A stretch of DNA of 64,000 bases, taken from Methylococcales bacterium (GTDB lineage Bacteria; Pseudomonadota; Gammaproteobacteria; Methylococcales; Methylomonadaceae). The position numbers and the translations under genes were made by a program. The notes beneath the pieces were generated by a model that was not told the origin of the DNA, searched no databases, and saw only the letters and a program-made list of their open reading frames with translations. The DNA lies in assembly GCA_028715725.1 (NCBI GenBank), contig JAQURG010000010.1, forward strand, positions 1-64,000. Reading direction: 5' to 3'. This document shows positions 22,888 to 28,946 of this stretch, piece after piece (the stretch's first letter is position 1; each line of letters starts with the position of its first letter).

Positions 22888-23322
22888 ATGAGCAACGTTT
22901 TCAGTTTTACCGGCACAGTGGGCCGAGATGCCGAAGTCAGATACGCCCCGTCCGGTCTGGCAGTATTGAGTTTTACCGTAGCCAACAATATCGGGTTTGG
23001 CGATAAACAGCAAACGCTATGGATACGCGTAACCTTGTTCGGCAAGCGGGCGGAAGGGCAATTGCAAAACTATCTGAAGAAAGGCCAGCAAGTGTTTGTA
23101 TCCGGTGAATTAACGCAAAGTGAATATAAGGCGAATGACGGCACGACAAAAACCAGCCTGGAATTGAACGCTAACATAATCGATTTGATCGGCAAGAAAA
23201 ACGAGTCGAGCCAGCCGCAACAAAATTATCAGCCTTCCGGAGTTCGGGAGCGGGCGCCTGTCCGGGAAGAGGTTAACCACGATAATTTTGATACGCCCTA
23301 TGATGACGATATTCCGTTTTAG
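22888..23322 (+). CDS. ssb: Single-stranded DNA-binding protein
   Basis: OB-fold pattern FTGTVGRDAEVRYAPSGLAVLSFTVA...LWIRVTLFGKRAE; acidic tip DNFDTPYDDDIPF. Confidence 0.95.
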   Translation: MSNVFSFTGTVGRDAEVRYAPSGLAVLSFTVANNIGFGDKQQTLWIRVTLFGKRAEGQLQNYLKKGQQVFVSGELTQSEYKANDGTTKTSLELNANIIDLIGKKNESSQPQQNYQPSGVRERAPVREEVNHDNFDTPYDDDIPF

Positions 23323-23358
23323 GAGTCACCTTAGAATAATTTTGAAAAAAATATTATT

Positions 23359-23383
23359 AAGCCTCTGTTATAAGAGGCTTTTT
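23359..23383 (+). terminator. Rho-independent terminator after ssb
   Basis: aagcctctgttataagaggcttttt hairpin plus T-run. Confidence 0.75.
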
Positions 23384-23525
23384 CATTTAATTAACTGCGT
23401 AACAATAGTTAGCAGTATAAGCCCGTTAATTTATTCCAGAGACTTCGTATTTGGAACATATGTAAGGTTACAATTAGGTATGCACTTTAATTTTAAAGAT
23501 TTTTAACCATAGATGTGCCATTTTA

Positions 23526-26500
23526 ATGACAAAATTATCTAAAGGATTATACGACCGCCTCATTCATGAAGATGAATTAATAGAATTAAATCGCCTAGTC
23601 TTTGAGGGGCGGGCAAGGGTGCAAACTCCTTCTTTCATTGAGAATAGGGAATATTTATTAGCCGAGCTAATGAATAGATTGCCTGAGTTATTAGATGAAA
23701 TTTCCTCTTCAAAAGATAACGATTTAGAAAAAGCTCAAGCTGAACTCAAGTTAATCTCAAGCTTGCTGAAAAATGCCAGACTTGAGTCAAAAGCTGAGCT
23801 TGAAACAGATTTTATTGCAGACCCGGCTCAAGTTTTACGCTCTATTCACGAACCTAACATGCCAGGAATTTTTCCTATTACTGGTTTGCGGACTCCTTGG
23901 CTATTTAGTTCTTCACGTAGCGAACCTTCTTTATTGCATGAACTTATTGCAGAGTTACAAGCTGTAGATACAGTCGATATTTTGGTCAGCTTCATTACCT
24001 GGAGCGGGGTAAGAAAAATAATCGATGTATTGAAGCAAGCTACAGCGATTGATGCTGCAGGAAATTCTCGGACAAAATTTCGCATTTTAACAACTACTTA
24101 TATAGGCGCAACAGATGCAAAAGCGGTGAATGCTTTAGCTGAGCTTCCCAATGTTGAGTTAAGAATTTCATTGGATGGAAGACGCACAAGATTACACGCT
24201 AAAGCCTGGATTTTTAATCGAAATAGTGGCTTTGGTACGGCATTTATAGGTAGCGCCAATCTATCTGAATCAGCGTTAATTAGCGGCATAGAATGGACAG
24301 TCAAATTAACACAAATCTCAAACGAGCCTATTTTCAGAAACGCTCAAGCACATTTTGAAACGCTTTGGAATGATGGTGAGTTTCTGCATTATGATCCCAG
24401 TAACCAAGACCATCGTAATGCTTTAGAGAAAGCATTACGTGCAGAATCCAGTCGCGGCAATAGCAATCAAAAAAATTCAGAACCCATTGCAATTCAGACT
24501 TGGTTTGATTTAAGTCCTAAGCCATATCAACAAGAAATGCTTGATCGTTTAGCATCTGAGAGAGCCCATCAGCGTAATCGCAACTTGGTTGTTGCAGCAA
24601 CAGGCACTGGCAAAACCGTTGTTGCTGCTTTTGATTATGCTCGTCTGGCAAAAGAGCGAGGAGGTCAACCACGATTATTATTTGTTGCGCATAGGATACA
24701 AATTTTAAAACAGGCTATTAATACTTTCCGCCAAGTGCTGCGTGATTCAAACTTTGGTGAGTTATTGGACGGCAATAATGTAGCCAAGCAACATGACCAT
24801 TTATTTGCGACTATTAATACGATAAATTACCGTGACTTAGTAGGTCAACAGGGTGCAGATTTTTGGTACATGGTCATTATGGATGAGGCGCACCATTTAC
24901 CAGCCAATTCGTTTGACAAATTTATTTCATCGGTTAAACCCGCTATCCTTTTGGGTTTAACTGCTACACCAGAGCGGACAGACGGCAAAAGTTTAAATCA
25001 GTACTTCGATACAAGACCGGATGGTTCACCGGCTGTTACATTAAGATTATGGGATGCTCTGGACCAAGAGTTGCTTGCCCCTTTTGAGTATTATGCAACC
25101 CATGACGATGTTGATTTAACTAACATTCAATGGAAACAAATAAATGTTGATGCCCAACTCGATAATATAATTTTTGCCAGCGATATACGTGCTCGCTCAG
25201 CACTTCAAGCCGTTGAAACTTACGTCAGTAATTTAGAAAAGCTCAAAGCCATCGGTTTTTGCATCAGTGTGCGACATGCTGAATTTATGGCTGACTACTT
25301 TAATTTTCATAACTTACCGTCAAAATCAATTACAGGTCAACACAATCAAGCAGAACGCGATCATGCGATAAATGAGCTTCAGAATGGCAGGCTAAAAGTA
25401 ATTTTCACTTGTGACTTATTCAATGAAGGAGTCGATATACCTGATATAAACACCTTATTGCTGCTTCGCCCAACTCAAAGTCCAGTCGTATTTCAGCAGC
25501 AAATTGGTCGGGGTTTACGGCTATCTCCAGGTAAAAGTAGTTGCTTAGTCTTGGATTTTATTGGTACTTATTCTCAGGATTTCAGGTTTGATGTGTTGTT
25601 GAGATCTTTAACCGGACAAAGCAGGGCGGTAATAAAAGAATCGGTTGATAAAGGCTTCGGATTATTGCCGACAGGCTGTCATATCCAATTTGATAGAGTT
25701 GCTAGAGAACGTGTATTAGCGAGTCTTAAATTTGCTCTTAATTTAAACGTGAATCGACTCACAGCAGAGTTAATAGCCTGGGCGAATGCTAAAGACAAAA
25801 CTCAAATTAAATTGAAGGATTTTCTGATTGAGAATGAAATCGAAATTTCAGATATTTATTCGGCAAACCATTATTGGAGTGAGTTTAAACGACGTGCTCA
25901 GCTTCCAACAAAAAGCAAGGGCCCTAGAGAAGACGCACTTTCTCGCAGAATAAAAAGTATTTTGTATGTTGATGATGTCGAAATGTTAAATGCTTGGCAT
26001 CAAGCTTTGATGCGAAACAAGATTGACGAAATTAGAACCCAAGTCCTTGCGCATAAATTTTTAGTGAGCCCATCTGAATTGATCAATCCTGAGCAATTCA
26101 TATCTTTAATAGAACGACATCCTGCTGTCAGGGAAGAGCTGATTGAAGTAATTGAATGGCGCTTAGAACAATCAGTTCAGCCTTATTCACGTCTTCAAGG
26201 CGCTCCACCATCATGGCCGCTCTCTCTGCATAATCGATATTCAAGGTCTGATATTATTACAGCAATCGGTTATTCAAACGCCATCAAACGTCCTGCATTT
26301 TGGGAAGGATGTCTGGCGATTTTGGAATGTAAAATAGAACTCATGTTTGTGACTTTGGATAAAAGTGAAGGTTTTGCAGATCGTGTTCAATATCATGACT
26401 ACGCTATCAGTCCTAAATTATTCCACTGGCAATCTCAAAATAAGGCCAGAGCAACAAATATAACAGGTCAGCGCTATTTAAATAGTGTTGCCGGACCAAG

Positions 26501-26681
26501 CGCCAATGGTTGGCGGTTTTATTTATTTGTCCGAGAAAACAATAATTCCGTTTTTGCCGTGCTTGGTGAAGCTTTGCTAATTAAAGCAGAAGGCGAACGT
26601 CCTATTTCAATTACATGGGAACTTAAGAATGCAATGCCTATTGAATTGTTTAGACATTTTTCAATATTGAAAACAGCTTAA
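23526..26681 (+). CDS. PLD-like nuclease domain + DEAD/DEAH (SF2) helicase with DUF3427-like C-terminus
   Basis: PLD HxK motif HAKAWIFNRNSGFGTAFIGSANLSESAL; helicase motifs VVAATGTGKTVVAAFDY, VIMDEAHH, LTATPERTDG, QQIGRGLRL; ~350-aa C-terminal region with late WRFYLFVRE. Confidence 0.9.
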   Translation: MTKLSKGLYDRLIHEDELIELNRLVFEGRARVQTPSFIENREYLLAELMNRLPELLDEISSSKDNDLEKAQAELKLISSLLKNARLESKAELETDFIADPAQVLRSIHEPNMPGIFPITGLRTPWLFSSSRSEPSLLHELIAELQAVDTVDILVSFITWSGVRKIIDVLKQATAIDAAGNSRTKFRILTTTYIGATDAKAVNALAELPNVELRISLDGRRTRLHAKAWIFNRNSGFGTAFIGSANLSESALISGIEWTVKLTQISNEPIFRNAQAHFETLWNDGEFLHYDPSNQDHRNALEKALRAESSRGNSNQKNSEPIAIQTWFDLSPKPYQQEMLDRLASERAHQRNRNLVVAATGTGKTVVAAFDYARLAKERGGQPRLLFVAHRIQILKQAINTFRQVLRDSNFGELLDGNNVAKQHDHLFATINTINYRDLVGQQGADFWYMVIMDEAHHLPANSFDKFISSVKPAILLGLTATPERTDGKSLNQYFDTRPDGSPAVTLRLWDALDQELLAPFEYYATHDDVDLTNIQWKQINVDAQLDNIIFASDIRARSALQAVETYVSNLEKLKAIGFCISVRHAEFMADYFNFHNLPSKSITGQHNQAERDHAINELQNGRLKVIFTCDLFNEGVDIPDINTLLLLRPTQSPVVFQQQIGRGLRLSPGKSSCLVLDFIGTYSQDFRFDVLLRSLTGQSRAVIKESVDKGFGLLPTGCHIQFDRVARERVLASLKFALNLNVNRLTAELIAWANAKDKTQIKLKDFLIENEIEISDIYSANHYWSEFKRRAQLPTKSKGPREDALSRRIKSILYVDDVEMLNAWHQALMRNKIDEIRTQVLAHKFLVSPSELINPEQFISLIERHPAVREELIEVIEWRLEQSVQPYSRLQGAPPSWPLSLHNRYSRSDIITAIGYSNAIKRPAFWEGCLAILECKIELMFVTLDKSEGFADRVQYHDYAISPKLFHWQSQNKARATNITGQRYLNSVAGPSANGWRFYLFVRENNNSVFAVLGEALLIKAEGERPISITWELKNAMPIELFRHFSILKTA

Positions 26682-26781
26682 TGATAGCTTTAAGTAAAAT
26701 CGCTAATTTAATTGTGTAATTTTAATATAAATATTACAAGAAGCACTCAAGTATATTTAACTGTTCTAAAGGGTGACTGAA

Positions 26782-27345
26782 ATGACAACTAAGCAGTCAA
26801 AATCCATCTATCAAATAAAAATATCGTTAATCGGCGCAAAACCGCCTATTTGGAGAACGGTTTTAGTGGCTAGCAATTTAGGATTGTCTGCTTTTCACGA
26901 CGTTATTCAAATTGCAATGGGCTGGACAGATAGTCATTTACACCAGTTTATTGCCAACAATGTATTTTATGGAATTCCTGATGATGAGTTTGGGATGGAA
27001 ATAGAAGATGAAAATAAATATAAAATATCTCATTTGCTAAAAAAGGAAAAAGATACCCTCATTTATGAATATGATTTTGGGGATGGTTGGGAGCACAAGA
27101 TACTGTTAGAAAAAATACTTCCCTATGACAGTAAAACTGCCTTGCCTCTTTGCATTAAAGGTAAACGCTCTTGTCCGCCCGAAGATTGTGGTGGTCTTTG
27201 GGGGTATGAAGAACTTCTTGAAACAATTTCAGACCCCAAGCATCCTGATCACAAAGACATGCTGGAATGGCTGGGTGGGGAATTTGATCCTGAGGAGTTT
27301 GATCTTGAACAAATAAATGAGGATTTAGCCGAGTTCAGGCGATAG
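26782..27345 (+). CDS. Plasmid pRiA4b Orf3-like family protein
   Basis: YQIKISLIGAKPPIWRTVLV...LSAFHDVIQIAMGWTDSHLHQF...YEYDFGDGWEHKILLE...CPPEDCGGLWGYEELLE. Alternative GTG start at 26773. Confidence 0.93.
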   Translation: MTTKQSKSIYQIKISLIGAKPPIWRTVLVASNLGLSAFHDVIQIAMGWTDSHLHQFIANNVFYGIPDDEFGMEIEDENKYKISHLLKKEKDTLIYEYDFGDGWEHKILLEKILPYDSKTALPLCIKGKRSCPPEDCGGLWGYEELLETISDPKHPDHKDMLEWLGGEFDPEEFDLEQINEDLAEFRR

Positions 27346-27359
27346 TTTGCGGCTTAATT

Positions 27360-28946
27360 ATGGACAGCAATAAAACAGCTCTGGAAAATGGTTCTTCCTT
27401 GATTGAGGCTTTGTCTGTAGCCAGTGCTTATGAGCATGAAGCCGCTGAAATTAGTATCGTTGAAACCCATATTTCCTCGGTGCTACTGACCGGACAGTTT
27501 GCCTACAAAATCAAAAAGCCTGTTAACTTTGGTTTTCTGGATTTTTCCACTCTGGATAAGCGCCGGTTTTTTTGCCAGGAAGAATTAAGACTTAACCGGC
27601 GTTTAGCCCCGGATATTTATCTTGATGTCGTGCCGATTACCGGAACACCCGATCAGCCCAAAATGGGTGGGACAGGGGAGGCTATCGAATACGCCGTCAA
27701 GATGATTCAATTTCCCGCAGGATTTACGCTAACTGAGCTCGCCGAATGCAGGCGCTTGACTTCAGGTGAAATTGATCAGATTACCGGCATTGTCGCCGGT
27801 TTTCATGAAACCGTTGCCAAGGCGGATGAAGCTTCTCTTTATGGAACTAGCGAATGTATCAAGCACTGGTTTGTCGAAAATTTTGGGCATATCGGGCCCT
27901 TGCTGGCCGATGATAAGCAGAAACAGCAACTGCAAGCGATCGAGAGTTGGGGCAATCAGGAATGGCATGACAGGGCTGATTTGATGGCGCTCCGCAAACA
28001 GCAAGGCTATGTGCGTGAATGCCACGGCGATCTTCATTTAAGCAATATAACCTTGATAAACGGTAAGGTGACCTTATTCGATTGCATCGAGTTTAACCCG
28101 AAGCTGCGCTGGATTGATGTTATCAACGAGGTTGCTTTCGTGGTGATTGATTTACTGCATTTTGGTTATGATCACTATGCCTGGCGTTTGCTCAATCATT
28201 ATCTGCAACATACCGGCGATTACCGGGGCGTGGCTTTGTTGCGCTATTACCTGGTTTATCGTGCCTTGGTCTGCGCCAAGGTTTCGTTGCTGCGCCAGGC
28301 GCAGCAACCTACTGACGCTGTTACTAATCAGGCGCCGTTAAAATACACTAAGTTTGCAAATCTGGCCGAGCGTTTCACCAAGCCCGAGCCAGTTACATTA
28401 ATAATTACTCATGGCTATTCAGGTTCCGGTAAATCCACGATTGCAGCACAGCTTGCCGAAAAAACCGGCGCGTTCCAGATACGCTCGGATATAGAACGCA
28501 AGAGGCTATTTGGATACCGCGCGCAAGAGCATAGCAGCAGCGGTCTTGACAGCGGGCTTTATACGCAAGAGTCCAGCCTGAGAACTTATAAGCATCTTGC
28601 AGACTGTGCAAAAATTATCATCGAAGCCCGTTTCTCCGCTATTATTGATGCCGCTTTTCTTAAAACCGAGCAGCGCGACCTGTTTCGAAAGCTTGCCGAC
28701 TCAAGCGGTGTGGTATTTCTTATCGTTGATTTTCAGGCATCCTATGAAGAATTATCAAGACGCATAAGGCGGCGGCAAAACGATGCTTCAGAAGCCACTA
28801 TCGATGTCTTGCGCCATCAACAGCAAACCGCGCAGCCGCTGTCTTCGGAAGAACAGAAATTCGTATTAACGATGGATACCGAGAGCGACAAAGCTCTGGA
28901 AAAACTACTGGACTATTTCCACGGTAATTTGCACTTTTCGGGGTAG
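27360..28946 (+). CDS. Bifunctional aminoglycoside-phosphotransferase-like / P-loop kinase-like protein
   Basis: N-terminal HISSVLLTGQFAYKIKKPVNFGFLDFSTLDKRRFFCQEELRLNRRLAPDIY and ECHGDLHLSNI...FDCIEFN; C-terminal THGYSGSGKSTIAAQLAEKTGAFQIRSDIERKRLFG. Confidence 0.9.
   Translation: MDSNKTALENGSSLIEALSVASAYEHEAAEISIVETHISSVLLTGQFAYKIKKPVNFGFLDFSTLDKRRFFCQEELRLNRRLAPDIYLDVVPITGTPDQPKMGGTGEAIEYAVKMIQFPAGFTLTELAECRRLTSGEIDQITGIVAGFHETVAKADEASLYGTSECIKHWFVENFGHIGPLLADDKQKQQLQAIESWGNQEWHDRADLMALRKQQGYVRECHGDLHLSNITLINGKVTLFDCIEFNPKLRWIDVINEVAFVVIDLLHFGYDHYAWRLLNHYLQHTGDYRGVALLRYYLVYRALVCAKVSLLRQAQQPTDAVTNQAPLKYTKFANLAERFTKPEPVTLIITHGYSGSGKSTIAAQLAEKTGAFQIRSDIERKRLFGYRAQEHSSSGLDSGLYTQESSLRTYKHLADCAKIIIEARFSAIIDAAFLKTEQRDLFRKLADSSGVVFLIVDFQASYEELSRRIRRRQNDASEATIDVLRHQQQTAQPLSSEEQKFVLTMDTESDKALEKLLDYFHGNLHFSG

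Follow-up and report, generated by a model that had tools for sequence, protein, structure and literature searches.

SauUSI, the closest relative of solved structure of the protein considered here, is a single polypeptide that acts with ATP on DNA containing 5-methylcytosine (5mC) or 5-hydroxymethylcytosine (5hmC) (PMC7913695; PMC3874153). DNA with either base is cut by the enzyme (PMC3874153), and Asp-858, Trp-868 and Tyr-831 were proposed as residues of its base-binding pocket (PMC7913695). We analyzed a stretch of 64,000 nucleotides from a Methylococcales bacterium (assembly GCA_028715725.1, contig JAQURG010000010.1, positions 1 to 64,000; hereafter the window), in which a gene for a 1,051-residue protein is followed by a small gene of the PF07929 type, here called orf3. 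An earlier note, made from the sequence alone, had proposed the two as a candidate defense module. Our analysis indicates that the large protein very probably belongs with SauUSI among the modification-dependent (type IV) restriction enzymes and is of a one-gene type. With high confidence, what the window holds is a restriction enzyme of a known kind, standing alone, and not a new two-gene system.

The large open reading frame (ORF) was present as described earlier, at 23526-26681 (+). Its reported PLD HxK...GSANLS site, SF2 helicase and DUF3427-like C-terminus were borne out by Pfam (ResIII 2.2e-36, Helicase_C 1.1e-15, DUF3427 8.5e-24) and by residues invariant across 74 aligned homologues that span five bacterial phyla and include one archaeon, namely H224-x-K226, G242-S243-x-N245, K363 of Walker A and D453-E454-x-H456. 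PLDc_2 scored marginally under its curated cut-off (25 bits vs 27), but the PLD residues were invariant nonetheless, and the SF2 motifs I, II, III and VI (ATGTGKT, DEAHH, TATPER and QQIGRGLR) were intact and conserved. Reading from the N-terminus, the protein consists of a helical extension (residues 1-~115), the PLD nuclease (~120-290), the SF2 translocase (~327-690), a helical coupler (~690-880) and an SRA-like DUF3427 reader (~880-1045). The gene and its key sites are as follows.

23526..26681, + strand: very probable SauUSI-like type IV restriction enzyme, 1,051 residues (Pfam, PADLOC and PDB matches, motif conservation in 74 homologues, AlphaFold models with Foldseek)
24195..24203, + strand: PLD active-site motif H224-x-K226 (residues 224-226), invariant in 74/74 homologues, equivalent to SauUSI 119-HxK (PMC7913695)
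24249..24266, + strand: GSANLS, second half of the PLD site (residues 242-247), with G242, S243 and N245 invariant
24597..24617, + strand: Walker A, ATGTGKT (residues 358-364), with K363 invariant
26397..26429, + strand: predicted modified-base pocket, D958 ... W968 (residues 958-968), equivalent to SauUSI Asp-858 and Trp-868 (PMC7913695), near-invariant

The PADLOC check that the earlier note had proposed gave a match of the large gene to the type IV methyl-directed restriction model mREase_IV (PDLC03659; 631 bits, E=5.8e-190, residues 114-1044), a family from which the window protein shows no difference of kind. SauUSI (PDB 7clg) was the sole strong long-range relative in the PDB, with E=5.9e-82 over residues 119-799 and a weak second stretch aligning residues 899-1020 with SauUSI 803-918. 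Structure models, built from window and locus sequences only, led to the same protein: 7clg was the top Foldseek match of the full-length model (E=7.5e-47), and the C-terminal 192 residues, modeled separately with AlphaFold (pLDDT, the predicted local distance difference test score, of 87), matched in order SauUSI, AspBHI, AbaSI and the SRA domain of SUVH5, all of which are readers of modified cytosine. The window protein thus resembles SauUSI in carrying a PLD nuclease, an SF2 ATPase, a helical coupler and an SRA-like reader in the same order on one polypeptide, and in keeping the catalytic residues as well as the Asp and Trp of the pocket (D958 and W968). It differs in its ~24-26% identity in structural alignment, in an N-terminal extension of ~110 residues, in the replacement of Tyr-831 by Cys, and in its surroundings: a NUDIX gene lies 1 bp upstream of SauUSI, and none adjoins the window copy. 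SauUSI itself is known for ATP-dependent cleavage of 5mC/5hmC DNA at S5mCNGS; the window protein is likened to it by sequence and model.

With the same architecture, a type IV enzyme could be directed at a base other than 5mC or 5hmC, such as glucosylated 5hmC, N4-methylcytosine, a modified purine or phosphorothioate DNA; we consider this unlikely, but the most probable of the alternatives. The methyl-contacting Tyr-831 of SauUSI is not retained, its place being taken by C929 in the window protein and mostly by Val in the homologues, so that a base other than 5mC could be the target. The fold matches include AbaSI, which reads hydroxymethylated cytosine, and HNH genes of the phosphorothioate-DNA type adjoin some Bacteroidota homologues. 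However, Tyr-831 was predicted, from a model, to govern the specificity of SauUSI itself and does not define the family, whereas the cytosine-contacting Asp and the stacking Trp are conserved; moreover, the NUDIX partner found in the wider family (see below) is close kin of a characterized 5-methyl/5-hydroxymethyl-dCTPase. The distribution of resident C5-methyltransferases also argues, weakly, against another base. Genomes that carry the enzyme would be expected to be without such methyltransferases if it attacks 5mC. Matches to C5-methyltransferases occurred in 46% of the relatives and 32% of the class, and among the 12 genomes in which a long-type gene, that is, a gene of the window's subfamily, is intact (G000, G040, G062, G066, G102, G134, G721, G723, G871, G905, G935 and G961), only G871 had one not known to be broken, against ~4-5 expected (P=0.02 for one or none, in a small, post hoc test that ignores kinship). 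Both genomes with a broken or split long-type gene (G002 and G861) had C5-methyltransferases (Fisher P=0.03), and no comparable depletion was found for short-type, SauUSI-like genes. This depletion lends weak support to 5mC as the target base. The only C5-methyltransferase locus of the window genome (L118, G000:C91:3404-4357) is broken by stops and frameshifts; by eye, it lies near tyrosine recombinase-like, HNH-like and Vsr-like ORFs.

Besides the replaced tyrosine and the limits of the methyltransferase test, two features weigh against the assignment to the SauUSI type. The N-terminal extension, predicted to be rich in helices and common to the long subfamily, has no assigned role, and Foldseek superposes the full-length model loosely (rmsd, the root-mean-square deviation, of ~13 Å over 940 columns), as expected of a flexible multidomain model.

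By analogy with SauUSI, a modified cytosine of incoming DNA, most likely 5mC or 5hmC, would be flipped out and bound by the SRA-like C-terminal domain of this restriction enzyme, and binding of the base would activate the SF2 motor by way of the helical coupler. Translocation of the activated enzyme on the DNA would follow, with both strands being cut by the PLD nuclease domains acting as a dimer, predicting an anti-phage or anti-plasmid effect. No partner gene would be needed, as judged from the absence of a conserved neighbor gene in the window's clade and of an intact C5-methyltransferase in the window genome. The earlier suggestion of a nuclease-translocase fusion acting against foreign DNA is very probably right, as is horizontal acquisition of the gene; the likeness to SauUSI had not been recognized.

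The RadD and XPB helicase domains were the next-best matches of the protein, as would suit a repair helicase with a housekeeping role (RadD/YejH-like or XPB-like) that had gained a nuclease and served no immune function, but we regard this reading as very improbable. The window protein has the SF2 core in common with RadD/YejH; the alignment is limited to the helicase part and does not run the full length. Membership in RadD (NF053632) was rejected at 103 bits vs a cut-off of 720, whereas the full-length match was to SauUSI and the type IV model, and the protein has an SRA-type reader domain. Its gene is also patchily distributed, the long type being present in 7/151 relatives and 17/369 genomes of the class being positive at the threshold used, and is inserted at differing places, once apparently interrupting a Z1-type gene. 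Two further identities, which share the PLD motif and helicase parts with the window protein, were rejected as well: the PLD-helicase anti-phage protein (NF042964; PADLOC PLD_Helicase; 27 bits vs a cut-off of 1100) and DISARM DrmC (19 bits vs 133). Homologues of the restriction enzyme occurred in Bacillota, Bacteroidota, Actinomycetota, Pseudomonadota and one archaeal genome, and Rhodocyclus purpureus carried a short-type and a long-type relative in tandem (L167 3088-9774).

The restriction gene travels alone. DNA similarity among close relatives begins ~35 bp before the start codon and ends at the stop codon, and nothing beyond the nuclease gene and, at most, these upstream bases is shared. 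The copy in sister genome G002 (L104 450-7752) carries an in-frame TGA. On one side it has a fragment with a P-loop-like motif and on the other a Z1-domain part, with a C5-methyltransferase fragment close by; the flanking parts apparently belong to one interrupted Z1-domain gene, so that one defense gene would have inserted in another. Neither a transposase nor a repeat nor a target duplication was detected, and a target-site duplication suspected by eye at the ends of the insert in the window was rejected, the junction similarity being no better than that of shuffled sequence (P=0.56). The window's clade has no constant alternative partner, its neighbors being varied toxin-antitoxin-like or unrelated genes. 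These comparisons show that restriction genes of this kind move as a bare gene among unrelated places in methanotroph genomes. The window genome is itself that of a gammaproteobacterium of the methanotroph type, with Methylobacter and Crenothrix as the closest named relatives that the search returned. The features surrounding the gene in the window are as follows.

22888..23322, + strand: ssb paralogue, left neighbor of the insertion (profile matches, gene row of the relatives)
23323..26764, no strand: approximate insert between ssb and orf3 (alignments to L102 and L103, with ssb to 23321 and orf3 from ~26763-26770)
23359..23386, + strand: terminator-like hairpin in the ssb-nuclease interval, inside the insert (pattern scan; not above shuffle expectation on its own)
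23488..26683, + strand: unit common to the close relatives G002 and G040, that is, the gene with ~35 bp upstream (blastn against L104, L106, L108 and L119-L131; flanks differ)
26773..27345, + strand: PF07929 (pRiA4b ORF-3-like) gene orf3, bystander (Pfam; part of the ssb-orf3-aak row in relatives)
27360..28946, + strand: aak, AAA_33 ATP-binding protein of 528 residues, right part of the ancestral row (Pfam, gene row of the relatives)

The second ORF was likewise present as reported (26773-27345, +; 190 residues), and its PF07929 assignment and co-directional position downstream held (PRiA4_ORF3 7.5e-71); from alignment with the starts of its orthologues, ATG 26782 is more probably its start than GTG 26773. 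In a genome of the same genus (G001, contig C52), ssb (25259-25690), orf3 (25703-26269) and aak (26287-27861) form a contiguous row without the nuclease gene, and in G002 ssb directly abuts orf3, the nuclease gene not being at that place. Alignment to both genomes showed that the window consists of the ssb-orf3-aak row with an insert of ~3.44 kb directly following the stop codon of ssb. The site is therefore empty in two congeners. The segment is indeed AT-richer than its neighbors, as had been noticed, with 39.5% GC in the nuclease gene and 38.5% in orf3 vs 47.6-48.7% in topB, ssb and aak; however, the low GC content of orf3 is its own, because the orthologues in two sister genomes without the insert are equally low (38.7-39.5%).

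Association of the two families was no more frequent than background, an outcome that was part of what the earlier note had named as refuting its module. A hidden Markov model of orf3, which detected 30/30 positive controls, found no orf3 within reach of the nuclease relatives at 73 further loci, all drawn from a single genome-wide scan (0/73), and none lay near a nuclease relative in the 16 other genomes with such a relative in the class-wide sample (0/16; 369 genomes, ~1.5 kb of flank). Conversely, 1/30 orf3 loci in relatives adjoined a nuclease gene, and that one is the window itself. Nuclease homologues 91, 85 and 76% identical to the window protein are located elsewhere, with no orf3 nearby. 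The empty site and the lack of orf3 near nuclease relatives indicate that the smaller gene is a bystander and not a partner, and the two genes were rejected as a conserved module. That the PF07929 protein is nevertheless a needed partner in a true two-gene defense module, for example as a regulator or target adaptor, is hardly credible: the genes are co-directional, 91 bp apart and both AT-rich, and a pattern scan found no terminator-like site in the gap between them, but in two congeners orf3 follows ssb with no nuclease gene between them; it is AT-rich there too and is missing from the vicinity of the close homologues and of all the other loci and genomes sampled. The nuclease gene was very probably acquired by itself and came to lie between ssb and orf3 by insertion, so that its pairing with the PF07929 gene is accidental. 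With the empty site as proof, a candidate new system in the window was resolved as a known kind of enzyme next to a bystander. The main interest of the locus lies in this clean empty site, in the mobility of the bare gene, and in a NUDIX partner of its relatives.

Clustering of the neighbor genes at 81 nuclease loci revealed one dominant recurrent family, a NUDIX hydrolase, located within 150 bp at 28/81 loci vs 4 elsewhere in 804 kb of flanks (slot-based Fisher P ~1e-15, kinship ignored). The NUDIX gene is often abutting or overlapping at start and stop codons, being upstream, downstream or antiparallel according to clade, and its presence changed at least 13 times on the tree. The window copy has no adjacent NUDIX gene and sits in a proteobacterial clade of the PDLC03659 family that is without this partner. 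In Staphylococcaceae, a SauUSI relative stood alongside 28/30 NUDIX loci examined. SauUSI itself, recognized by 100% identity with the 7clg fragment, is among them: only 1 bp separates its start codon from the stop codon of the preceding NUDIX gene, whose product is identical over 123 residues to PDB 5x1x, a solved NUDIX protein named MutT. Examples of NUDIX genes beside SauUSI-type genes, all kin of 3GWY, are given below.

L215 1492-1893, - strand: NUDIX gene
L145 5426-5821: NUDIX gene
L188 5441-5830: NUDIX gene
L134 5618-6034: NUDIX gene

The top PDB match of a clostridial NUDIX partner was 3gwy (E=8.7e-36). For the enzyme 3GWY, from B. fragilis, k_cat/K_m was measured as 4.8e6 with 5-Me-dCTP and 4.4e6 with 5-MeOH-dCTP (PMC5158307). 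For the L188 partner, 3gwy and 5x1x tied as top match, so that 8-oxo-dGTP is a possible substrate by sequence alone. In 6/6 tested genomes with the pair, the best 3gwy match of the genome was the gene beside the restriction enzyme. The 3GWY gene itself was not among the 393 Bacteroidales genomes drawn; of its nearest relatives in those genomes, two (54% and 50% identical) were beside a restriction-enzyme homologue and the other 12 (44-49%) were not. The substrates of 3GWY are the triphosphates of the bases that SauUSI attacks, suggesting that cleaning of the nucleotide pool is coupled to restriction. We tentatively propose that SauUSI-type enzymes across bacteria may be half of a two-gene unit, the other half being a NUDIX hydrolase predicted to destroy 5-methyl-dCTP and 5-hydroxymethyl-dCTP, and that the Methylococcales clade of the window does without it. 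Such a hydrolase would keep modified nucleotides, for example those recovered from degraded phage DNA or produced by an infecting phage, out of host DNA, sparing the host from its own restriction; alternatively, it might starve hydroxymethylcytosine phages of their precursor. This raises the question of how cells with modification-dependent restriction avoid marking and cutting their own DNA through recycled modified nucleotides. In the literature searched, the only prior mention of a NUDIX/MutT gene beside SauUSI homologues was a figure legend naming MutT homologues in Streptococcus (PMC7641849), and nothing connecting the hydrolysis of 5-methyl-dCTP with type IV restriction was evident.

Other genes recurred around the relatives of SauUSI. 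In the SauUSI-like short clade of our sample, the neighbor was a small class I S-adenosylmethionine (SAM) methyltransferase instead of a NUDIX hydrolase, sometimes as a fusion.

L113 8260-8880, also L114, L115, L116, L117, L180 and L261: small class I SAM methyltransferase adjoining short-type SauUSI relatives
L260 268-4107: fusion involving the SAM methyltransferase
L112 1680-2657: NUDIX-methyltransferase fusion beside a short-type SauUSI relative

Restriction genes of the phosphorothioate-DNA HNH type were found near Bacteroidota homologues (L153 4652-5602, L155, L158 and L164 4697-5590), forming clusters of type IV-like genes. A small protein with no Pfam match recurred near the restriction genes (L132 5526-5849, L181 8381-8695, L139, L141, L143 and L170); we take it to resemble nucleoside triphosphate pyrophosphatases of the MazG type, which would make it another possible nucleotide-pool enzyme.

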